This document shows, piece after piece, positions 41 through 9,742 of a stretch of DNA of 10,152 bases. This stretch comes from Acidimicrobiales bacterium. GTDB taxonomy: Bacteria > Actinomycetota > Acidimicrobiia > Acidimicrobiales > Poriferisodaliceae. Every line of letters begins with the position of its first letter. The stretch's first letter is position 1. The position numbers and the translations under genes are program-made. The DNA lies in assembly GCA_020631315.1 (NCBI GenBank), contig JAHDHM010000103.1, positions 1 to 10,152 of the forward strand, in the 5' to 3' direction. The notes beneath the pieces were generated by a model. It was not told where the DNA came from and searched no databases. It saw only the letters and a program-made list of their open reading frames with translations.

Positions 41-673
41 TCAGAGCGAGTAACGCTCGAAGTCGTCCTCGCTCAGCGCACCGAACACCAGCTGTGGGTT
101 GGCGCCCGGGTCAGCCGGGATGATCAGCCACGACGGCTGGCCCCGCACACCGAGTTGCGCCCACAGATCACCGGAGAAGTCCGGGAGCTGGACGACGTCC
201 TGGAGCGAGTGGCGGGACACGAAGTCCTCCATCGCCTCTCGCTGGTCCCGACCGGGAATGCCGACGATGTTGATGTCGTCGCCGAACTTGGCCTTCGCCT
301 CTGCGACCGCAGGGGCTTCACGATTGCAGGTGCCTCACCAGGGAGCCCAGAACCACAACAACACGTCTTCGCCGACGAAGGCGGTGTTGTCGAAGGCCGC
401 TCCGTCGAGCGCCTCACCCGGAAGCGACAGCAGCACCTCTCGGATCTCGGCGCCGCTGGCGGTCTCTGCCGCGGCTGCGGCCGTCGTCGTGGAACCGTCG
501 GCGGCAGCGGTGGTCGCGGTGGCGTCGGCGGCTGCTGTGGTCGTGGCTGCCGTGGTCGGTGCGCTCGTTGCCTGGCTCGTGCTGGTGTCCTCGGAGGAAC
601 CACCGCACGCCGCGAGCAGCGTGGCGGCCGCGAACGCCGGAACGGCGAGGCGGCGACGCACTCGGTAGGGCAT
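41..673 (-). CDS. thioredoxin-fold lipoprotein (MPT53/DsbE-like) with in-frame TGA, probable selenocysteine in a UxxC active site
   Basis: Predicted 210-residue exported thiol-disulfide oxidoreductase, read through a TGA at 337-335 (residue 113). Residues 1-23 are a lipoprotein signal: M-P-Y-R-V-R-R-R, a hydrophobic stretch, then lipobox L-L-A-A-C with Cys23 as lipidation site. A Ser/Thr/Ala-rich linker runs to about residue 72. The thioredoxin fold follows: L-L-W-F-W-A-P-W, then U113-G-T-C116, then N-R-E-A-P. Cis-Pro180 lies in G-Q-P-S-W. The part after the TGA (V-G-I-P-G-R-D, E-A-M-E-D-F-V-S-R-H, a final SEDDFERYSL) resembles mycobacterial MPT53, which from memory has W-C-P-T-C at this site. 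The TGA thus sits exactly at the nucleophilic cysteine. The start at 673 fits the signal peptide; an in-frame ATG at 730 would add 19 residues before it. No clear Shine-Dalgarno is seen. Convergent with whatever ends at 36. Alternatives are a TGC-to-TGA mutation (pseudogene) or a sequencing error; the hairpin after the TGA argues for selenocysteine. Confidence 0.8.
297..316 (-). promoter_or_regulatory. candidate bacterial SECIS hairpin
   Basis: On the mRNA, 18 nt after the TGA, GCC (316-314) pairs with GGC (299-297) and CUGC (312-309) pairs with GCAG (304-301), with one C-A mismatch (313/300) between the two helices. The apical loop is GGUC (308-305). It begins 26 nt after the TGA and starts with G. 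As I recall the bacterial SECIS description, it is a short stem-loop just downstream of UGA, loop about 16-37 nt away, with a G in the first two loop positions. The U-G-C / GGUC / G-C-A apex also resembles the E. coli fdhF element. No bulged U like that in fdhF is evident. The fold was made by eye. Confidence 0.65.
335..337 (-). other. in-frame TGA at the active-site cysteine position (candidate Sec codon)
   Basis: The - strand reads TGG-TGA-GGC-ACC-TGC, that is W-(U)-G-T-C. Thioredoxin-like oxidoreductases have Cys at this codon as the attacking thiol. There is no other stop in frame between the TGA and the TAA-free end of the gene at 43-41, and the downstream frame is clearly thioredoxin-like. 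TGA differs from the cysteine codon TGC by one base, so a point mutation must be kept in mind. Confidence 0.75.
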
Positions 674-829: not shown

Positions 830-919
830 GTGAGTACTCGTGCGCTGATCATCACCTCGCTCGTCACCGGGCTGGTCATCCTCGTCGCCTTCACCGTCCA
901 GGTCCTGCTCGCGACCTGA
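830..919 (+). CDS. 29-residue single-pass membrane peptide (hypothetical)
   Basis: A GTG start and TGA stop enclose 29 codons reading M-S-T-R-A-L-I-I-T-S-L-V-T-G-L-V, then I-L-V-A-F-T-V-Q-V-L-L-A-T. After a short N-terminus with one Arg, nearly the whole peptide is one hydrophobic helix, enough to span the membrane once. Codon third positions are almost all G or C. A TAGCGT -10 box 7 nt upstream suggests a leaderless transcript, which explains the missing Shine-Dalgarno site. It lies between the divergent Sec lipoprotein gene and lpd. It is not recognised as a known family. It could be a real small membrane protein or a chance hydrophobic ORF; the promoter placement is the main support. Confidence 0.45.
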   Translation: MSTRALIITSLVTGLVILVAFTVQVLLAT

Positions 920-984
920 GCACTGCACCTGGCCCGGCGAGCGTCGCGGGACCGACGTCACGTCCGAACCCAGGCGCGTTCTCG

Positions 985-990
985 TAGTGT
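985..990 (+). promoter_or_regulatory. probable -10 box of the lpd promoter
   Basis: TAGTGT fits the TAnnnT consensus seen elsewhere in this window. Transcription from about 997 would give a leader of about 57 nt to the lpd ATG. No good -35 box is seen at 16-18 bp. Confidence 0.4.
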
Positions 991-996
991 GGGATC

Positions 997-1013
997 ACTG
1001 CCTCGACGGCAGT
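997..1013 (+). promoter_or_regulatory. hairpin at the predicted 5' end of the lpd mRNA
   Basis: ACTGCC (997-1002) and GGCAGT (1008-1013) pair perfectly around the 5-nt loop TCGAC. The stem begins where the transcript would start from the -10 box at 985-990. It could stabilise the mRNA 5' end or act as an operator, since it is also an inverted repeat in DNA. Confidence 0.4.
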
Positions 1014-1053
1014 CGCGACCGCGGTTCCCCTTCCCCCGTCCGGTCGCCTTCGC

Positions 1054-2460
1054 ATGAGTGACGCACACTTCGACCTGGTCATCATCGGCGGCGGTCCCGC
1101 CGGTTATGGCGCCGCCCTCTACGCCGCGTCGGCGGGCCTGTCGGTCGGTCTCGTCGAGCGGGACAAGATGGGTGGCACCTGCCTCCAGCGTGGCTGCATC
1201 CCCGCCAAGGAGCTGCTCGAGACCGCTGCGGTGACCCGCACGGTCCGCGAGGCACATCACTTCGGCGTGTTGACCAGCGAGCCGGGTCTCGACTTCACCA
1301 AGACCATGGCCCGCAAGCAGGGCGTGATCGACCAGCTGACCAAGGGTGTCCAGGGCCTGCTGAAGCGTCGCAAGGTGCAGTCCTACGACGGCACCGGCCG
1401 CCTCGGCCCGAACCGCACGGTCACCATCGATCTCGCCGACGGCTCGTCCACGACGATCAGCGGCGAGCGGGTGCTCCTGTGTGCCGGCTCGGTACCGCGA
1501 CAGCTGCCCGGCTTCGAGGTCGACGGCCGACTCGTGATGACCTCCGACGAGGTCCTGTCGATGCCCGCAGTCCCCGCTCGGGCCGCCGTCATCGGTGGCG
1601 GCGCCATCGGCTGCGAGTTCGCGTCGATGATGGCCGACCTCGGCGCCGAGGTCACGATCCTCGAGGGCATGGACCAGATCGTCCCGGGCGTCGATCCCGA
1701 CATCTCCAAGGCGCTGGCCCGCTCGTTCAAGAAGCGCAACATCACGGTGACCCCCGGCGTGCGCGTCACCGGCCACACCCCGTCGGCCGACGGCTCCGAG
1801 ACCACCGTGCACCTCGACGGCGCCGACGACATCACTGTCGAGACGGTGGTCGTGTCGATCGGCCGCCGACCCTTCGCCGATCTCCTCGGTCTCGAGGGCA
1901 CCGCCGTCGCCGTCGACGAGCGCGGCTACATCCAGGTCGACGACCGCTGCCGCACCGCGGAGCCAGGCGTCTACGCCCTCGGCGACATCATCAACACGCC
2001 GCAGCTGGCCCACGTCGGCTTCGCCGAGGCGATCATGGTCGTGAAGGACGTGCTCGGCGAGCCCACCATGCCCGTCGACTACGACAAGGTCCCGTGGGCC
2101 ATCTACTGCCACCCCGAGATCGCCTTCGCCGGCATGACCGAGGAGCAGGCCAAGGCGGCCGGCTACCAGGTGGTCGTCTCGAGCCACAAGTTCATCGGCA
2201 ACAGCCGCGCCCAGATCGTCAACGACACCGACGGCCTGGTGAAGATCATCGCCGAGGACCAGGGCGACGGCACCGGCGGCACGATCCTCGGTGTCCACAT
2301 GATGGGCCCGTGGGTCACCGAGCAGCTCGGCCAGGGCTATCTCGCGGTGAACTGGGAAGCCACGGTCGACGAGGTCGCGCAGTTCATCCAGCCCCACCCG
2401 ACGCTGTCGGAGCTGTTCGGCGAGACCGTGCTCGGCCTCACCGGCCGCAGTCTCCACTGA
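1054..2460 (+). CDS. lpdA: dihydrolipoyl dehydrogenase (E3)
   Basis: Flavoprotein of 468 residues that reoxidises the dihydrolipoamide arm of E2, passing electrons through a disulfide and FAD to NAD+; it serves 2-oxoacid dehydrogenase complexes and is cytoplasmic. Visible features, in order: FAD motif G-G-G-P-A-G (12-17); redox pair Cys43 and Cys48 in G-T-C-L-Q-R-G-C-I-P; NAD motif G-G-G-A-I-G (181-186) followed by E-F-A; second FAD motif A-L-G-D (Asp311); C-terminal dyad His448 and Glu453 in H-P-T-L-S-E, which comes from the partner subunit of the dimer. Length is normal for the family and no key residue is missing. The ATG at 1054 puts the FAD motif at its usual place; no Shine-Dalgarno is evident. 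It is followed after about 109 nt by the E2 gene on the same strand, in line with joint function. The related mercuric and glutathione reductases are less likely given the E2 and lipoate neighbours. Confidence 0.95.
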   Translation: MSDAHFDLVIIGGGPAGYGAALYAASAGLSVGLVERDKMGGTCLQRGCIPAKELLETAAVTRTVREAHHFGVLTSEPGLDFTKTMARKQGVIDQLTKGVQGLLKRRKVQSYDGTGRLGPNRTVTIDLADGSSTTISGERVLLCAGSVPRQLPGFEVDGRLVMTSDEVLSMPAVPARAAVIGGGAIGCEFASMMADLGAEVTILEGMDQIVPGVDPDISKALARSFKKRNITVTPGVRVTGHTPSADGSETTVHLDGADDITVETVVVSIGRRPFADLLGLEGTAVAVDERGYIQVDDRCRTAEPGVYALGDIINTPQLAHVGFAEAIMVVKDVLGEPTMPVDYDKVPWAIYCHPEIAFAGMTEEQAKAAGYQVVVSSHKFIGNSRAQIVNDTDGLVKIIAEDQGDGTGGTILGVHMMGPWVTEQLGQGYLAVNWEATVDEVAQFIQPHPTLSELFGETVLGLTGRSLH

Positions 2461-2569
2461 TCGACCCCACCCCGGTTCACACAAGCCGCCGCGTGGACGT
2501 CTCAACGCGGCACAATCAGACACAGGTTCCACACCACCCGCCGCCGACGCGGCAGACAGGATGACGATC

Positions 2570-3979
2570 ATGGCCAACGTGGAGATGCCCCAGCTCGGCG
2601 AAACGGTGACCGAGGGGACCATCACCCGATGGTTCAAGCAGGTCGGCGAGTCCGTCGCCGCCGACGAGGTGCTGTTCGAGGTCTCGACCGACAAGGTCGA
2701 CTCCGAGGTGCCGTCGCCGGTCGCCGGTGTGCTGACCGAGATCAAGGTCCCCGAGGGTGAGACCGTCGAAGTCGGTGTGGTGCTGGCCGTCATCGGCGAC
2801 GCGGGCAGCGCTCCGGCTCCCGCTGCAGCCCCCGAGCCGGCCGCGGCGCCTGAACCCGAGCCGGCACCGGCGCCTGTCGCTCCCGCCCCTGCCCCCGCTC
2901 CGGCACCCGCACCCGCTGCCCCTGCGCCCGCACCCGCACCAGCCCCGGCGCCCGCGGCTCCTGCCCCGGCCGCTGCGGCGTCGACGCCCGACGACGACCG
3001 GTTGCTGTCGCCCGTCGTGCGCCGGCTGATCCGAGAGAACGGTCTCGATCCGGCCTCGCTCACCGGAACCGGTGTCGGCGGCCGCATCACCCGCAAGGAC
3101 GTCCTCGACGCCCTCGATGCCGGCGCCGGTCAGGCCCCCGCCGCGGCTCCTGCACCCGCTCCCGCAGCAGCGCCGGCTCCCGCCCCGGCGCCTGCACCCG
3201 CACCGGCTCCCGCCCCCGCTCCTGCTCCGGCAGCTCCCGCCGTCGCGGCGTCGGCTGCGCCGGCGACCCGTTCGGAGTTCGTGCCGTTCAACAACATCCG
3301 TCGCCGTACCGCCGAGCACATGGTGGCGTCGAAGGCCATCTCACCGCACGCCATGACGGTGATCGAGGTCGACTACGAGGGCGTGCACCAGGTGCGCCAG
3401 GCCCACAAGGGCGCCTTCAAGGCCGACGAGGGATTCAGCCTCACCTTCCTGCCGTTCATCGTCCGTGCCGTCGTCGACGCGCTGGCCGAGTACCCGTACC
3501 TCAACGCCTCCGTCGAGGGTGACGGTCTGCGGGTGCACCACGACATCAACATCGGCATCGCCGTCGACCTCGAGGGTGAGGGCCTGATCGTCCCGGTGAT
3601 CCGTCAGGCCGACGGCCTGCGTCTCCGTGCGATCGCTCGTTCGATCAACGAGCTCGCCCAGAAGGCGCGCAGCAAGTCGCTCGGCATCGACGACATCAGC
3701 GGCGGCACGTTCACGCTGTCGAACAACGGCTCGTTCGGCACGCTCACCACCGCAGCGATCATCAACCAGCCGCAGGTCGCCGTGCTGTCGACCGACGGCA
3801 TCGCCCGCAAGCCGGTCGTCGTGAACGACTCGTTCGGCGGAGAGTCGATCGCCATCCACAGCGTCGGCAACCTGGCGATGGGCTGGGATCACCGTGCCTT
3901 CGACGGTGGCTACGCCGCCGGCTTCCTCCGGTCGGTGAAGCAGATCATCGAGACCCGCGACTGGGCGGCCGAGCTCTGA
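2570..3979 (+). CDS. sucB: dihydrolipoamide acyltransferase, E2 of a 2-oxoacid dehydrogenase complex
   Basis: Core acyltransferase of 469 residues. Domains: one lipoyl domain (1-77) with lipoylation site Lys42 in S-T-D-K-V-D; Ala/Pro linker (78-139); peripheral-subunit-binding domain (about 145-183, L-L-S-P-V-V-R-R-L to T-R-K-D-V); second Ala/Pro linker (183-237); catalytic domain (238-469) with His441 and Asp445 in D-H-R-A-F-D-G-G. The E2 moves the acyl group from the E1 product to CoA. I cannot tell succinyl (SucB) from acetyl (DlaT) or branched-chain specificity. Mycobacterial DlaT lies beside lipB and lipA, so this may be its counterpart, although it has just one lipoyl domain where DlaT, as I recall, has more. 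The ATG at 2570 is preferred: AGGA lies 8 nt upstream and the product begins M-A-N-V-E-M-P-Q-L-G-E. An in-frame ATG at 2561 adds three residues. LipB-LipA follows 37 nt later, so they are probably one operon. Confidence 0.93.
   Translation: MANVEMPQLGETVTEGTITRWFKQVGESVAADEVLFEVSTDKVDSEVPSPVAGVLTEIKVPEGETVEVGVVLAVIGDAGSAPAPAAAPEPAAAPEPEPAPAPVAPAPAPAPAPAPAAPAPAPAPAPAPAAPAPAAAASTPDDDRLLSPVVRRLIRENGLDPASLTGTGVGGRITRKDVLDALDAGAGQAPAAAPAPAPAAAPAPAPAPAPAPAPAPAPAPAAPAVAASAAPATRSEFVPFNNIRRRTAEHMVASKAISPHAMTVIEVDYEGVHQVRQAHKGAFKADEGFSLTFLPFIVRAVVDALAEYPYLNASVEGDGLRVHHDINIGIAVDLEGEGLIVPVIRQADGLRLRAIARSINELAQKARSKSLGIDDISGGTFTLSNNGSFGTLTTAAIINQPQVAVLSTDGIARKPVVVNDSFGGESIAIHSVGNLAMGWDHRAFDGGYAAGFLRSVKQIIETRDWAAEL
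2801..2983 (+). repeat. Ala-Pro repeat coding region, E2 linker 1
   Basis: Low-complexity DNA encoding alternating Ala and Pro with a few Glu residues, between the lipoyl and subunit-binding domains. Such linkers are stiff and extended and let the lipoyl domain swing between active sites. The repetitive GC-rich sequence also creates long false open frames on the other strand. Confidence 0.85.
3116..3280 (+). repeat. Ala-Pro repeat coding region, E2 linker 2
   Basis: A second low-complexity Ala/Pro stretch joins the subunit-binding domain to the catalytic domain. It is close in sequence to linker 1, so unequal recombination between the two could change the number of mobile domains. Confidence 0.8.
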
Positions 3980-4016
3980 CCCTGTCGACGTCTCGCCGTG
4001 TGATCGGGGCGCATTG

Positions 4017-5735
4017 ATGCTGCGCCAGCGCTGGCTCGGCCGCGTTCCCTACGCAGAGGCGATCGACCTGCAGCGCGCCCTGTTCGAGCAGCGGCGGGGC
4101 GACCATCTCCTGTTGCTCGAGCACCCGCACGTCTACACGATCGGTCGTTCCGGCGATCCGTCGAACGTGTTGGTCGAGCCCGAGTCCGTCGGTGCGACCC
4201 TCGAGCGCGTCGATCGGGGAGGCGACGTCACCTATCACGGACCCGGACAGCTGGTCGGCTACCCGATCATCGACGTGCCGGGCCGGCGCGGTGGCGGCAT
4301 GGCCGACACGGTCGCCTATGTGCGTTCCGTCGAACAGCTCATCATCGACACGTTGGCGGAGTTCGGTCTGACCGGAGATCGCCTCGACCGGTATCCGGGG
4401 GTGTGGGTCGACGTCGAGACGCCGACGCCACGGAAGATCGCTGCGATCGGTGTACGGCTGACCCGCGGCCGTTCCATGCACGGCTTCGCGTTGAACGTCG
4501 CACCTGATCTGGGCATGTTCGGCCACATCGTGCCGTGCGGCATCGCCGACAAGGGCGTGACCTCGCTGGCCGCCGAAGGAGTCGACGCGAGCATGGACGC
4601 CGTCGTCGACGTCGTGATGCGCCTCGCCGCCGAGCGCTGGGGCCGATCGGGCGCAGAGCGACAGGACGTCACCGGCCGATCGGCGGGCGACGTCGACCTG
4701 TCGCCGTTCTCTCGGGGTCTCGGTGCCGGCGAGCTCGTCCGCCCAGACCAGCACGGCGCTGTCTCCAAGAGCTCCGACTCCGGCTCGGTCGTGACCGGCC
4801 TGTCCATCGGTCGGGCGCCCTCTCGTCTGGAACGCCGCCGGGCGCAGGCCGGGGTCGAGGGCGAGATCGGGGTACGTGAACGCAAGCCCGACTGGTTGAG
4901 GGTCTCGGCCGACATGGGTCCGGAGTTCCTCGAACTCAAGCGGACCATGCGTCAGCACTCGCTCGTGACGGTGTGCGAGGAAGCCGCCTGCCCGAACATC
5001 TTCGAATGCTGGAACGAAGGCACCGCCACGTTCATGATCAACGGCGAGCGGTGCACACGGGCGTGCGGTTTCTGCCATGTCGACACCCGCAAGCCGGAAC
5101 CCCCTGATCCGGGCGAAGCGGGCCGCATCGCCGATGCGGTCGTGGCGATGGGTCTGCAGCACGCGGTCATCACGACCGTGGCGCGTGATGACCTGGCGGA
5201 CCACGGGGCGTCCGGGTTCGTCGACAGCATCGCCGCGATTCGTGCCGCCTCGCCTGCCACGGCGATCGAGGTGTTGATCTCGGATTGTCGTGGCGACGTC
5301 GCTGCGCTCGAAGCGATCTTCGACGCTCGACCCGATGTGATGAACCACAACCTGGAGACGGTCGCCCGTCTGCAGCGTGTGGTCCGCCCGTCGGCGGGTT
5401 ACGCCCGAAGCCTCGCCGTGCTCGCCCGCTCCAAGGCGGCCGGTCTGGTGACGAAATCGGGGCTCATCGTCGGCATGGGCGAATCTGACGATGAGGTCGC
5501 CGGGGCGCTGGCCGACCTCGCTGCCGTGGGGTGCGACATCGTCACGATCGGTCAGTACCTGCGGCCGACGACGAACCACCTTCCCGTGCACCGCTGGGCC
5601 GAACCGGCCACCTTCGAGCGGTACGTCGACATCGGACGCGAGCTCGGCATCGCGCACGTCGAGTCGAGTCCGCTCACGAGGTCGAGCCACCACGCCGGAG
5701 TGGTCGCCGAACGCGTCGGCGTCGTCACCGTCTGA
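4017..5735 (+). CDS. lipB-lipA: fused octanoyltransferase (LipB) and lipoyl synthase (LipA)
   Basis: One 572-residue frame carries both steps of lipoate assembly. The LipB part (1 to about 215) moves octanoate from acyl carrier protein to the target lysine. It has R-G-G-D-V-T-Y-H-G-P-G-Q-L and the catalytic pair Lys140 (K-I-A-A-I-G) and Cys174 (V-P-C-G-I). A linker rich in Ser, Gly and Asp (about 216-262) follows. The LipA part (about 263-572) is a radical SAM enzyme that inserts two sulfurs into the octanoyl chain. Its auxiliary iron-sulfur cluster ligands are Cys320, Cys325 and Cys331, and the SAM-cluster ligands Cys346, Cys350 and Cys353 (C-T-R-A-C-G-F-C). The C-terminal R-S-S (555-557) supplies the serine ligand. 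All key residues are present in both halves. The ATG at 4017 is chosen over the TTG just before it; GGGG lies upstream. It is 37 nt after the E2 gene. LipB and LipA are usually separate proteins. A sequencing error that fused two adjacent genes is possible, but the linker codons look normal. Confidence 0.92.
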   Translation: MLRQRWLGRVPYAEAIDLQRALFEQRRGDHLLLLEHPHVYTIGRSGDPSNVLVEPESVGATLERVDRGGDVTYHGPGQLVGYPIIDVPGRRGGGMADTVAYVRSVEQLIIDTLAEFGLTGDRLDRYPGVWVDVETPTPRKIAAIGVRLTRGRSMHGFALNVAPDLGMFGHIVPCGIADKGVTSLAAEGVDASMDAVVDVVMRLAAERWGRSGAERQDVTGRSAGDVDLSPFSRGLGAGELVRPDQHGAVSKSSDSGSVVTGLSIGRAPSRLERRRAQAGVEGEIGVRERKPDWLRVSADMGPEFLELKRTMRQHSLVTVCEEAACPNIFECWNEGTATFMINGERCTRACGFCHVDTRKPEPPDPGEAGRIADAVVAMGLQHAVITTVARDDLADHGASGFVDSIAAIRAASPATAIEVLISDCRGDVAALEAIFDARPDVMNHNLETVARLQRVVRPSAGYARSLAVLARSKAAGLVTKSGLIVGMGESDDEVAGALADLAAVGCDIVTIGQYLRPTTNHLPVHRWAEPATFERYVDIGRELGIAHVESSPLTRSSHHAGVVAERVGVVTV

Positions 5736-6029: not shown

Positions 6030-6094
6030 GTGGCCCCACTCCGGTGGACGGCGTTGTCGCCGTGTGTGGTTGCACGTCGCGGTGCAGAGAAGGG

Positions 6095-9000
6095 ATGACG
6101 GTGGAGACGAAGAACGAACGACGAATGCTCTCGATGCGGCACCTGGGCCGCGTGCTCGCCGGGGGCCTGTTGATGGCGGCCACCGTCGCTGTCCCGGTCA
6201 CGCCGGCCGGCGCGGCCACGGGCACGATCCAGTTCTCGACCGCCACGACGGCGGTCGACGAGGACGCCGGGACGGTCGACATCACGGTCACCCGCTCGGA
6301 CACCACCGACGAGGTGACGGTGGACTATCTGGTGGCCGGCACCAACTCGGACGGCAACGGCGGGCGCGATTTCACCATTCCGACCGGCAACGCAGCCGGC
6401 ACCCTCACCTTCGCGCCGGGCGTCTCGTCGGTCGACATCTCCGTGAACGTGAACGACGACCTTCGTGGTGAGGGCGGTACCGAGACGTTCACGTTCACCC
6501 TGCAGAGTCCCGAGAACCTGAGCGTGCCCGGCGACGCCTTCACGATCGGTGGACAGAACACGCACTCGCTCGAGATCACCGACGACGGTGACGCCGGTTC
6601 GATCGTCTTCTCCACGAACGCCAGCTCGGTCGCCGAGGGCGACAGCGGCACGACCACCCGCTCGGTGTCGGTCACCCGGACGGGCGGCTCAGAGGGAGCA
6701 GTCACGGGCCAGGTCGCCTCGACCGGTGGCAGCGCCACTGCAGGTGTCGACTACGTCGCCGTCAGCTCCGGACTGTCGTGGCCCGACGGTGTCTCGACCG
6801 CTCGGACGGTCGACGTGGTCGTCAACGGCGACAACGCGCTCGAGGTCGACGAGCAGATCGATCTCACGATCACCGCCGCAGGTGGTGGTGCCTCGATCGG
6901 TGGCAACGACTCGCACACCGTCACGATCACCGACGACGACGCCGCCGGTGTCGTGAGCTTCGCCGCCACGTCGGACAGTGTCGGTGAGGCCGACGGCACG
7001 CTGAGCGTGACCCTCAACCGCACCGGCGGTTCCGACGGCTCCGTGTCCGTGACCTACGCGACCGTCAACGGCACCGCCGTGGCCGGTTCGGACTTCGTCG
7101 CCGAGACCGACACCATCGTGTTCTCCCAGGGGGAGACCACCAAGCAGTTCGACATCGCGATCATCGACGACCTCGAGAACGACGACGCAGAACAGTTCGT
7201 CATCTCGATCTCGGGTGACGTCACGGGTGACACCACTGCGACGATCTCGATCGTCGACGACGACGATGCGCTCGAGGCGGTCTTCGACTCGTTCACCACA
7301 CCCGAGGACACGACCCTCACCACGCCCGTCAGCGTGCTGGCCAACGACAACGGTCCGAGCGGCGCCACCTTGACGGTCCAGTCCTTCGGTGCGCCGACCA
7401 GTGGTTCGATCACCAGCTCGAACCTCACCGCCGGCACGTTCGTCTACGAACCGGCCGCGAACTTCGAGGGCGACGTCTTCATCTCGTACGTCGTCACGGA
7501 CGGTACGAACACCGACAGCGGTGTGATCCGCGTCGTCGTCACGGACGACAACGCCGCGCCGGTCGCCGCCGACGCCGTCGTGCCGCTGGCCTCGCGCATC
7601 GACCCGACCGAGATCGACGTCCTCGCCAACGATTCAGACCAGGACGGCGACCCTCTGTCGATCGTGCCGGAGACGTTGACCTCCTCGGGTGGCAACGAGG
7701 TCGTGTGCACGACCTCGGTGTGCACGTTCACCCCCGAGGTCGGTTTCGTGGGTGCGGACGAGTTCGTCTACACGGCACAGGACTCGTCCAACGTGACCGA
7801 CTCGGCGACGGTGACCGTGTACGTCGGCACGCCGCGAGACTGCGATGTGACGGTGACCGCGGGCGTGCCCTTCGTCGGCACCTCGGCGAGCGAGGTGATC
7901 TGCGGAACCGCAGGCGACGACGTCATCGACGGTGGCGGGGGTGACGACTACATCCTCGGCCTCGGTGGTGACGATGTGCTGCGCGGCGGCGACGGCAGTG
8001 ACCTGCTCGCCGGTGGGCCGGGAAGTGACCTGCTCGAGCCTGGTCCTGGCGACAGCGACGAGAGCGTCGGCGGTGCCGGGGTCGACACGGTCAGCTACAC
8101 CGGCTCGGCTCCGGGCGCGACGGCAACGGCGACGGGCAGCGACAGCGTCGTCGTCGGTGCGACGTCGATCACCATCGACACGGCGAACGACGCCGACGGT
8201 GGTGCCGATGACGCCGACTCCCACGAGTCCGTCGAGACGGTGCTCGTCGATCTTCTCGGCGGCAACGACATCGTGACGGTGTCGCCGAGCACTGTCGTGT
8301 CCTTCGACCTTCGAGGTGGTGACGGCCTCGACCGACTCAAGTACGACACGACCGGGATCGACGGCGAGACCGACAGCGGCACGGTGATCACCGCGACCGG
8401 TCAGCAGCCGGTGCAGCACACGAGCTTCGAGATCCGCGAGGTCGGTGTGTTCATGCGGATCGGCACCCCCGGTGTCGACGACTGGTTCTTCACCTCGCAG
8501 CCACTGGTCGAAGGTCTCATCATCGACCAGGCCGAGTCCGGCGACCGTCTGACCGTGCAGTTCGGTGCGTTGACGGGTCCCTTCACCGTGAACGACTCCG
8601 GCGTGTTCGGCGAGGACACGGTCGTGGCGCTCGGTACCGGCTCCGCCGACGACTTCGAGATCCGTGCCCGTCAGGTTCGGACCGACGACGAACAGGTCAC
8701 CTTCGGCGGTATCGAGGTCCTGCGAGTCGAAGGCCGCGGCGGAGACGACGCCTTCACCATCGACGTGACCGCTGCGTTCCGTCAGCAGTCGTTCGCAGTC
8801 GACCTCACCGTCGATGGCGGTGACGGTCACGACGTGCTGCGTCTCACCAGCGACGAGGCCTGCTCCGTCGACGCCGCCGGCAACGTGGTGATCGGATCGG
8901 TCGGACTGTTCCGCATCCAGCTGGTGGAGACCGTCGAGTTCACGTGCGCGGGCGAGTCGGGCATCACGTCGCTCGTCGACGGCTACTGGCTCGTCGGCGC

Positions 9001-9742
9001 CGACGGCACGGTCTACGCCATCGGCAGCGTGCCGCACCTGGGCAACCGCGAGAACCCCGACGCCCCCGTCGCCGGCATGGACTCGCTGATCGACAAGCGG
9101 GGCTACTGGGTCGCCCAGGCCGACGGCAACGTCGCGGCCTTCGGGACCGCGGTCGATCACGGTGACCTTCCGGACATCGGCGTCGACCCGGCGTTCCCGA
9201 TCGTCGACATGTCGGCGCTGGTCGACGGCAGCGGCTACTACCTGCTCGGCTCCGACGGCGGCGTGTTCGCCTTCAAGGCACCGTTCTACGGTTCGACCGG
9301 CGATCTGCGGCTCGACCAGCCGGTCGTGGCGATGTCGACCAGCCCGAACGGCGGCTATTGGTTCGTCGCCAGCGACGGTGGCATCTTCGCCTACGGTCCC
9401 GGCGCTGCCTTCCACGGCTCGGTGCCGGAGTACGTGGCATTCGAGGACCTTCAGGCGCCCATCGTCGGCATGGCGGCCACCACGTCGGGCAACGGCTACT
9501 GGCTCGTCGCCGCGGACGGCGGCGTCTTCGCCTTCGGCGATGCCGTGTTCTACGGCTCGGTCCCCGGGGCGCTGCCGCCCGGCACGCCGCTCGCAGCCGA
9601 GATCGTCGGCATCGTCGCCACCGCCTCGGGCAACGGCTACTGGATCGTGGGCGCCGACGGTGGCGTGTTCGCCTTCGGTGACGCTCAGTTCCAGGGCGCC
9701 GTCGTCGTTCCTGCCAATGACGTCGTGTCGCTCACAGGGTGA
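6095..9742 (+). CDS. secreted mosaic protein: Calx-beta x3, cadherin/Ig-like x2, RTX stretch, six GYWLV-type repeats
   Basis: Large exported protein of 1215 residues, probably a surface or matrix calcium-binding adhesin-type protein. A signal peptide (1-40) has basic R-R-M-L-S-M-R-H, a hydrophobic core and cleavage after A-G-A. Calx-beta domains lie at about 43-168, 169-285 and 286-391, each closing with a T/V-D-D-D/G calcium-type motif. Two cadherin/Ig-like domains follow (392-483, 486-578), with V-L-A-N-D-N and V-L-A-N-D-S-D-Q-D-G. RTX-like repeats G-G-D-D-V-L and G-G-D-G-S-D span about 601-668. Residues 669-955 are Asp/Gly-rich and beta-like, not assigned. Six repeats of G-Y-W-x-V-x-x-D-G-G-V-F-A-F-G from residue 963 to the end look like beta-propeller blades. 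The mature part has six cysteines in three close pairs, suggesting disulfides. No LPXTG or membrane anchor is seen, so attachment is unclear. Start: the ATG at 6095 directly follows GAGAAGGG; a GTG at 6101 has better spacing; a GTG at 6044 would spoil the signal peptide. Partner and substrate are unknown. Confidence 0.88.
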   Translation: MTVETKNERRMLSMRHLGRVLAGGLLMAATVAVPVTPAGAATGTIQFSTATTAVDEDAGTVDITVTRSDTTDEVTVDYLVAGTNSDGNGGRDFTIPTGNAAGTLTFAPGVSSVDISVNVNDDLRGEGGTETFTFTLQSPENLSVPGDAFTIGGQNTHSLEITDDGDAGSIVFSTNASSVAEGDSGTTTRSVSVTRTGGSEGAVTGQVASTGGSATAGVDYVAVSSGLSWPDGVSTARTVDVVVNGDNALEVDEQIDLTITAAGGGASIGGNDSHTVTITDDDAAGVVSFAATSDSVGEADGTLSVTLNRTGGSDGSVSVTYATVNGTAVAGSDFVAETDTIVFSQGETTKQFDIAIIDDLENDDAEQFVISISGDVTGDTTATISIVDDDDALEAVFDSFTTPEDTTLTTPVSVLANDNGPSGATLTVQSFGAPTSGSITSSNLTAGTFVYEPAANFEGDVFISYVVTDGTNTDSGVIRVVVTDDNAAPVAADAVVPLASRIDPTEIDVLANDSDQDGDPLSIVPETLTSSGGNEVVCTTSVCTFTPEVGFVGADEFVYTAQDSSNVTDSATVTVYVGTPRDCDVTVTAGVPFVGTSASEVICGTAGDDVIDGGGGDDYILGLGGDDVLRGGDGSDLLAGGPGSDLLEPGPGDSDESVGGAGVDTVSYTGSAPGATATATGSDSVVVGATSITIDTANDADGGADDADSHESVETVLVDLLGGNDIVTVSPSTVVSFDLRGGDGLDRLKYDTTGIDGETDSGTVITATGQQPVQHTSFEIREVGVFMRIGTPGVDDWFFTSQPLVEGLIIDQAESGDRLTVQFGALTGPFTVNDSGVFGEDTVVALGTGSADDFEIRARQVRTDDEQVTFGGIEVLRVEGRGGDDAFTIDVTAAFRQQSFAVDLTVDGGDGHDVLRLTSDEACSVDAAGNVVIGSVGLFRIQLVETVEFTCAGESGITSLVDGYWLVGADGTVYAIGSVPHLGNRENPDAPVAGMDSLIDKRGYWVAQADGNVAAFGTAVDHGDLPDIGVDPAFPIVDMSALVDGSGYYLLGSDGGVFAFKAPFYGSTGDLRLDQPVVAMSTSPNGGYWFVASDGGIFAYGPGAAFHGSVPEYVAFEDLQAPIVGMAATTSGNGYWLVAADGGVFAFGDAVFYGSVPGALPPGTPLAAEIVGIVATASGNGYWIVGADGGVFAFGDAQFQGAVVVPANDVVSLTG
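7897..8100 (+). repeat. RTX (hemolysin-type) calcium-binding repeats
   Basis: The encoded stretch contains successive nonapeptide-like units such as G-T-A-G-D-D-V-I-D, G-G-G-G-D-D-Y-I-L, G-L-G-G-D-D-V-L-R and G-G-D-G-S-D-L-L-A. In the known family these bind Ca2+ in a parallel beta-roll. The array is short and degrades toward its end. Confidence 0.75.
8981..9712 (+). repeat. six tandem GYWLV...DGGVFAFG repeats
   Basis: Repeat units begin with the GY codons at 8981, 9101, 9233, 9353, 9494 and 9635, spaced 120, 132, 120, 141 and 141 bp (40-47 residues). Each has Gly-Tyr-aromatic, an Asp-Gly turn, a Phe/Ala-Phe-Gly strand and a closing F-x-G. Such repeats are common in secreted actinobacterial proteins and are likely propeller blades. 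Units 1 and 2 are the most diverged (D-G-T-V-Y-A-I-G and D-G-N-V-A-A-F-G). Confidence 0.8.

Follow-up and report, generated by a model that had tools for sequence, protein, structure and literature searches.

Does the gene at the left end of this 10,152-nucleotide stretch of Acidimicrobiales DNA (hereafter the window) encode a lipoprotein cut short by a stop codon, or a selenoprotein in which that codon is read as selenocysteine (Sec)? From the ATG at 673, on the minus strand, translation gives 112 residues (MPYRVRRRLAVPAFAAATLLAAC...LLWFWAPW) up to a TGA at 337-335; beyond it, the frame continues for 97 sense codons, beginning with G-T-C, to a second TGA at 43-41. The selenoprotein frame could instead start further upstream, from an ATG at 730. 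A preliminary description of this DNA had proposed the selenoprotein reading, and its frame, coordinates and codon counts agree with the translation of the window.

The selenoprotein reading is strongly supported. Its sequence basis is the conserved catalytic TGA in a column otherwise held by Cys, purifying selection, and the presence of Sec machinery in relatives, to which a hairpin, the fold and the signal peptide are added. It is very likely that the gene is functional, that UGA113 is read as Sec, and that the product is an exported, lipid-anchored thiol-disulfide oxidoreductase of the DsbF/MPT53/TlpA type. The features discussed below are the following:

41..673, minus strand: predicted selenoprotein gene, TlpA/DsbE-like thioredoxin-fold lipoprotein of 210 residues with Sec113 (frame, Pfam and alignment)
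608..673, minus strand: lipoprotein signal peptide, residues 1-22, with LAA directly before C23 (sequence, read by eye)
605..607, minus strand: Cys23, predicted lipidated residue, conserved in at least 90% of alignment A1
335..337, minus strand: putative Sec-UGA codon, residue 113, position one of the UxxC active site (frame, homologue column)
326..328, minus strand: Cys116, second active-site residue, invariant in alignment A1
297..316, minus strand: bSECIS-like hairpin GCC-C-CUGC-[GGUC]-GCAG-A-GGC, loop 26 nt past the UGA (sequence and folding)
134..136, minus strand: Pro180 after Gln179, at the cis-Pro position of the thioredoxin fold, preceding strand 181-185 (alignment, model)
41..43, minus strand: actual terminator of the selenoprotein gene, likewise TGA (frame)
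1054..2460, plus strand: lpd, dihydrolipoyl dehydrogenase, divergent from the selenoprotein gene (an arrangement seen again in relatives)

Lipoprotein signal, fold and proposed mechanism

Lipoprotein signals are recognized by the established lipobox rule. LAAC at residues 20-23, identified by eye, provides the lipobox cysteine after a signal peptide, and Cys23 is conserved, in agreement with the lipoprotein character claimed earlier. Cys23 is predicted to carry the lipid anchor, and a Thr/Ala-rich linker joins the lipoprotein signal to the thioredoxin-fold domain.

When the TGA is translated as a residue, the protein scores above the Pfam cut-offs for Redoxin (PF08534, E 1.1e-9) and AhpC-TSA (PF00578, E 5.3e-9), as well as for Thioredoxin and Thioredoxin_8. 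In an alignment of the window protein with 26 full-length homologues (alignment A1), the TGA column is Cys in 26/26 homologues and C116 is invariant, which places the TGA at the nucleophilic position, as had been suggested. Bacterial selenoproteins are recognized by this pattern, a UGA in frame where homologues have Cys. AlphaFold2, run on the same alignment, gave a mean pLDDT of 81, with ten-residue means of 90-98 over residues 91-200. The top fold matches of the model are 3ios (TM 0.84) and 1lu4 (TM 0.85, both by target length), with ResA next, and the same two are the best sequence matches among solved structures (E 8.9e-27 and 3.6e-19, respectively). These closest solved structures are DsbF and MPT53/DsbE of Mycobacterium tuberculosis, and the MPT53/DsbE-like fold named in the preliminary description is thus recovered by sequence and fold alike. 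Both chains were presumably solved as Cys proteins, unlike the window protein with its predicted Sec113. Pro180 lies at the cis-Pro position in alignment and model, again as described earlier, and its cis-Pro role is predicted from the fold family. A Redoxin/AhpC-TSA domain, a [CU]xxC motif, the cis-Pro position and the fold, all present here, define membership of the TlpA/DsbE-like thioredoxin superfamily.

No NCBIfam model was matched above cut-off by the window protein or by the four relatives scanned; for TIGR00385 (DsbE), the window scored 40.5 against a cut-off of 123.15 bits. Judged from its sequence, the protein probably works like DsbF, MPT53 or TlpA, as an exported [U/C]xxC oxidoreductase, and is not filed as DsbE. 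Two NCBIfam families resemble it by name. The 'ResA-like WAxxUGC motif-containing protein' (NF041054) is thioredoxin-like and, by its name, contains Sec as the window protein would; however, the window scored 23.2 against a cut-off of 300, and the motif name implies a different Sec spacing. The 'Rcas_1661 family thioredoxin-like (seleno)lipoprotein' (NF041057) is, by name, a precedent for a selenolipoprotein, and was matched below its cut-off (22.8 versus 190) by one of the four relatives scanned. DsbE and DsbF of M. tuberculosis have been reported to assist oxidative folding in vitro (PMC3853704).

In the mechanism that we propose, the SelA/SelB/SelC/SelD system would decode UGA113 as Sec, steered by the stem-loop whose GGUC loop begins 26 nt past the UGA, and translation would continue to the second TGA. 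The product would then be exported and anchored by lipid via Cys23. Outside the membrane, it would serve as a DsbF/MPT53/TlpA-type thiol-disulfide oxidoreductase, with Sec113 making the first attack and Cys116 closing the selenenyl-sulfide. We infer Sec insertion in the source organism, lipidation and catalysis from the features described above.

The TGA codon in relatives

In GC-rich DNA, open frames arise easily and carry no weight alone, as is seen from a 712-codon antisense ORF in the window (958-3096, minus strand) that lies over lpd and its neighbour. What takes the selenoprotein gene beyond chance is the homology on either side of the TGA, together with the recurrence of this TGA in other genomes. 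Among the 395 Acidimicrobiia genomes searched, with at most seven candidates scored per genome, 211 had matches at E<=1e-8; of the best 80 places listed, 67 had an in-frame TGA and the other 13 did not. The preliminary description had considered such a protein unusual in an actinobacterium. This view has to be abandoned: the gene turned up often in the Acidimicrobiia genomes searched, where truncated gene calls conceal it.

The site itself was read in 132 whole-genome loci (L017-L018, L019-L048 and L059-L158), of which L059-L158 were picked to cover both TGA and Cys kinds, so that the TGA:Cys ratio is not a prevalence. In the column of residue 113, whose alignment across homologues had been proposed earlier as a check, TGA occurs 92 times and Cys 40 times (TGC 32, TGT 8), with no TAA, no TAG and hence no other stop. 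The 16 named loci from genome contigs all have Cys, in a biased set for which one search pattern of six held Cys. At position U+3, Cys is found in 90 of the 92 TGA loci, in which the downstream frame is open for 94-104 codons, and a second TGA in the other two. The latter (L082, in G274:C36, and L099, in G315:C8) have the UxxU motif WAPW-U-PH-U, with two in-frame TGAs three codons apart, and are possible diselenide forms.

Past the TGA, dN was lower than dS in 36/36 pairs of relatives, which are more than 70% identical downstream and share sequences; the window, which has no close DNA relative, was left out of these pairs. Purifying selection acts beyond the TGA in close relatives. The next stop in the 92 TGA loci is TGA in 55 cases (two of them the second TGA of UxxU), TAG in 25 and TAA in 12; UGA therefore serves these genes as an ordinary terminator too. 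A quick tree of few columns, with 142 rows (93 Sec and 49 Cys; seven distant or duplicate rows omitted), required 12 Sec/Cys changes, at least five of them forced by well-supported branches, versus 40.6 in shuffles, which indicates that Sec is clustered yet exchangeable with Cys.

A paralogous Sec subfamily (L097, L101, L104-L106, L108, L110 and others) was also observed, with the motif FWAEW-U-xxC...RELPV(I/V)(D/E) and hairpins at +16, in some members also at +35. A tblastn search of plasmids gave nine matches, the best at 37% identity, and none of 90 pattern matches in viral contigs was a relative.

Ordinary annotation had been predicted to yield a 112-residue truncated lipoprotein, and this is what protein databases hold: the window's truncated form (P0002), P0003 (84% identity) and P0026 all stop at WFWAPW. 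A profile made from 14 N-terminal halves, in which the query limited candidate size to about 59-189 residues, retrieved 162 proteins at E<=1e-8, 120 of them among the matches listed. All 121 proteins considered (118 new ones among the matches listed, plus P0002, P0003 and P0026) end exactly one residue ahead of the site. Given the query-size limit, and because protein records are silent on which stop codon ends each truncated protein, this result speaks for an abundance of truncated forms and not for a lack of full ones. The listed proteins with a named source are mostly called 'hypothetical protein', and several come from Ilumatobacter.

Hairpin, Sec machinery and competing explanations

Published rules for bacterial SECIS elements (bSECIS) call for a loop of 3-9 nt, a stem of 4-16 bp, a G in the first two loop positions, a distance of 16-37 nt after the UGA and an MFE <= -7.5 (PMC13188914). 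Folded alone, the window hairpin conforms to them (4 bp, a mismatch and 3 bp, loop GGUC, spacing 26, -9.9 to -11.3 kcal/mol); in RNAfold of a 45-nt stretch of the window, a competing fold at -14.4 beats the proposed hairpin at -11.3 kcal/mol. The hairpins of Sec genes fall into three registers: a GGUC loop at +26 (window type), a loop at +34 that is mostly AGUUU or AGUUC, and a loop at +16, with the sequence AGUUG in one group of paralogues. When these three registers, chosen after inspecting the Sec set, were screened for a stem of at least 4 bp without any loop rule, 86 of 91 distinct Sec sequences had one, versus 3 of 55 Cys sequences; in 200 synonymous shuffles of the Sec set, the mean number with a hairpin was 25.8 and the maximum 36. 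Of the five Sec misses, L030, L076, L078 and L086 have, by eye, a GGUC hairpin with one mismatch, and L024 has none.

Covariation was assessed by five measures in all 49 Sec sequences with GGUC at +26 (48 distinct), misses included. In the window-type stem, 90.5% of cells were paired versus 75.3% in shuffles, and the covariation score was 0.461 versus 0.195 (0/500 shuffles as high in each case). Two measures failed to beat the shuffles: there was no excess of pairs with two-sided change (4 versus 3.4, with 228/500 as high) or of further pair types (11 versus 9.4, with 86/500 as high). In addition, the covariation partly follows amino-acid changes (PSVE/PAVA), and the RNAalifold consensus is weak, with 3 pairs retained at -1.14 kcal/mol. 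In Cys genes with GGUC at +26, the hairpin was found in 0/5 rows (one gene is represented twice).

The window, a 10-kb contig, has no tRNA-Sec or Rfam match (Rfam, ARAGORN), as expected at such a size. The lpd nearest to that of the window among the 395 genomes is 67% identical, which means that a close relative with a genome was not found; the machinery was examined in the more distant ones. With strict filters and the Rfam cut-off of 47 bits, tRNA-Sec was called in 280/395 genomes but also in 5/14 controls. This cut-off thus overcalls tRNA-Sec, and a threshold of E<=1e-10, where the values show a gap, was used instead; SelB was above cut-off in 2/14 controls. At E<=1e-10, 80 of the 93 genomes for which a TGA place was listed had a tRNA-Sec, versus 15 of the 28 with only Cys places listed (Fisher p 0.001), a comparison that covers 121 of the 211 matched genomes and in which the TGA lies inside the match, the site itself having been read only in part. 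Incomplete assemblies or the strict filters may explain the 13 of 93 genomes without tRNA-Sec at this threshold. ARAGORN identified tRNA-SeC(tca) in 14/14 loci given.

SelA, SelB and SelD were searched with curated cut-offs in 20 genomes, 16 that have a TGA place (by reading of the site in 15 of them, and from the match listing alone for G241) and 4 comparators. In the former, SelB was found in 16/16, SelA in 16/16 and SelD in 15/16; G216 has no SelD above cut-off, and its SelA is in three pieces. In most relatives with the gene, the selB and selC named as a check in the preliminary description are thus present. No TGA place was listed for the comparators: all three proteins were above cut-off in G108, SelA and SelD in G198, and none in G111 or G020. 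Eight of the 15 selD genes contain one in-frame TGA of their own (G028, G315, G158, G224, G369, G371, G274 and G241), so that some members of the class probably have a SelD that is itself a selenoprotein. The whole set can be seen in G028, which has two Sec genes of the family (213270-213878 and 3305136-3305744), adjoining SelA and SelB, a SelD with an in-frame TGA, and tRNA-SeC. The lpd-linked Sec gene of G028 reads WFWAPTUSICNR around the site. Four genomes of about 1 Mb (G006, G012, G018 and G026) have a strong tRNA-Sec (about 75 bits) and no family match at E<=1e-8; other selenoproteins may keep the Sec code there.

Several explanations other than Sec were weighed. The change from TGC or TGT to TGA takes a single base, and the Cys form exists in 40 of the 132 loci, as would suit a gene that once had Cys here and acquired the stop by chance, through decay to a pseudogene or a sequencing error. 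However, at this one position the same loci have 92 TGA and not a single TAA or TAG, dN is below dS past the TGA in all 36 relative pairs, and proteins from other contigs share the same end; on these grounds a pseudogene or error is rejected and considered very improbable. A frame would likewise be left open by genome-wide reassignment of UGA to an ordinary amino acid, or by a suppressor tRNA. Such a code is at odds with the fact that UGA terminates the window gene itself and comes as the next stop in 55 of the 92 TGA-carrying relatives, and with a site that is otherwise Cys in every aligned sequence. Reassignment is therefore also rejected, as extremely improbable.

A further alternative concerns what is made at the UGA, which might be read as Cys, or passed by so few ribosomes that mainly the 112-residue lipoprotein is produced. 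SelB-mediated decoding of UGA is often inefficient, which lends this explanation some substance. It is nevertheless highly unlikely, because UGA is conserved instead of a Cys codon, because relatives have the hairpin and the Sec gene set, and because, in the AlphaFold2 model, the N-terminal part alone would be without the remainder of the thioredoxin fold. Insertion of Sec at UGA113 is thus the preferred reading.

Known selenoproteins and the lpd neighbourhood

The window protein is of a kind already known, the UxxC thioredoxin-like selenoproteins, of which it is a new, large member. A UxxC Trx-like family, which may or may not include that of the window, is described in the GOS study (PMC2398784). 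Similarly, Table 1 of a 2026 review contains a 'Redoxin family protein' (PF08534, HEU0032618.1) and a 'Thiol-disulfide isomerase-like protein' (cd02966, MGB1650493.1), which share superfamily and UxxC with the window protein (PMC13188914). Both were predicted by the same logic and are compared here by description; they may or may not overlap with the window family. Actinobacteria, actinomycetes and lipoproteins are not mentioned in the main text of that review.

Sec use in actinobacteria is not new, since 12 families and 19 selenoproteins were reported for the phylum as then drawn, with 12 selenoproteins in Symbiobacterium (PMC1794560), and Sec use has been named in Microlunatus, Nakamurella and Arthrobacter (PMC5029168). 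SelA and SelB were also reported in most sponge-symbiont bins of various phyla (PMC5649159). No link of Acidimicrobiia or Ilumatobacter to a selenoprotein was found in the open-licence papers searched. Ilumatobacter coccineum YM16-304 is described as aerobic and free-living in a paper whose main text has no selenium or selenoprotein terms, its one 'selen' word being an author name in a reference (PMC3910706). According to the 2026 review, aerobic bacteria rarely retain selenoproteins (PMC13188914); 40.4% of Sec users were counted as aerobic in another study (PMC5029168).

Very probably, the window gene encodes a working membrane-anchored selenium enzyme, and it belongs to a large family in Acidimicrobiia whose members are often listed as short unknown proteins. 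The family is larger than the preliminary description supposed and less exotic as a kind: many Acidimicrobiia genomes carry it, and the five members scanned were without an NCBIfam model over cut-off. Natural Sec and Cys relatives within one class offer a ready test of the choice of Sec outside the cell. A wider proposal is put forward only tentatively and is on balance doubtful: Acidimicrobiia, including free-living aerobes, may keep the Sec code largely for ancient, multi-copy selenolipoproteins outside the cytoplasm. These would use several SECIS registers, include an lpd-linked orthologue and two-Sec (UxxU) variants, and make up a major envelope disulfide-handling system and a selenoproteome missed by annotation.

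In the window, the selenoprotein gene and lpd are head-to-head, with starts 381 bases apart. In relatives, lpd lies within 2.5 kb of 24 of the 67 best TGA places, divergent every time, and of one of the 13 Cys places, this one being beside a TGA gene in G044; 50 of the 67 TGA places and 7 of the 13 Cys places are in genomes with a listed lpd. P0026 and the lpd homologue P0033 (89% identity) are both on contigs of 20234 and are probably neighbours too. In the tree, read by eye, the window and all 25 lpd-linked rows fall within one 71-row group (support 94, not starred). The placement of the window inside this group is loose, and the row nearest to it is a Cys protein, L020 (41%); for this reason, orthology of the window gene with the lpd-linked selenoproteins is considered probable rather than proved.

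ORFs were listed around 23 Sec loci, and two neighbours were scanned against Pfam. Between the selenoprotein gene and lpd, the window has a 29-residue hydrophobic ORF (VSTRALIITSLVTGLVILVAFTVQVLLAT; 830-919, plus strand), in place of which G028, L029 and L031 have a protein of 141-143 residues with a similar start, e.g., MKTRTLLLLS. This small protein had no Pfam match in the two loci scanned (L029 and L031). Downstream of lpd and an E2 acyltransferase gene, a 573-residue ORF (4014-5735, plus strand) with LplA-B_cat (LipB-type), LIAS_N and Radical_SAM (lipoyl synthase) domains is an apparent LipB-LipA fusion. Further along, at 6044-9742 on the plus strand, the window encodes a large surface-type protein with Calx-beta domains (three stretches), Ig-/cadherin-like domains and RTX calcium-binding repeats.
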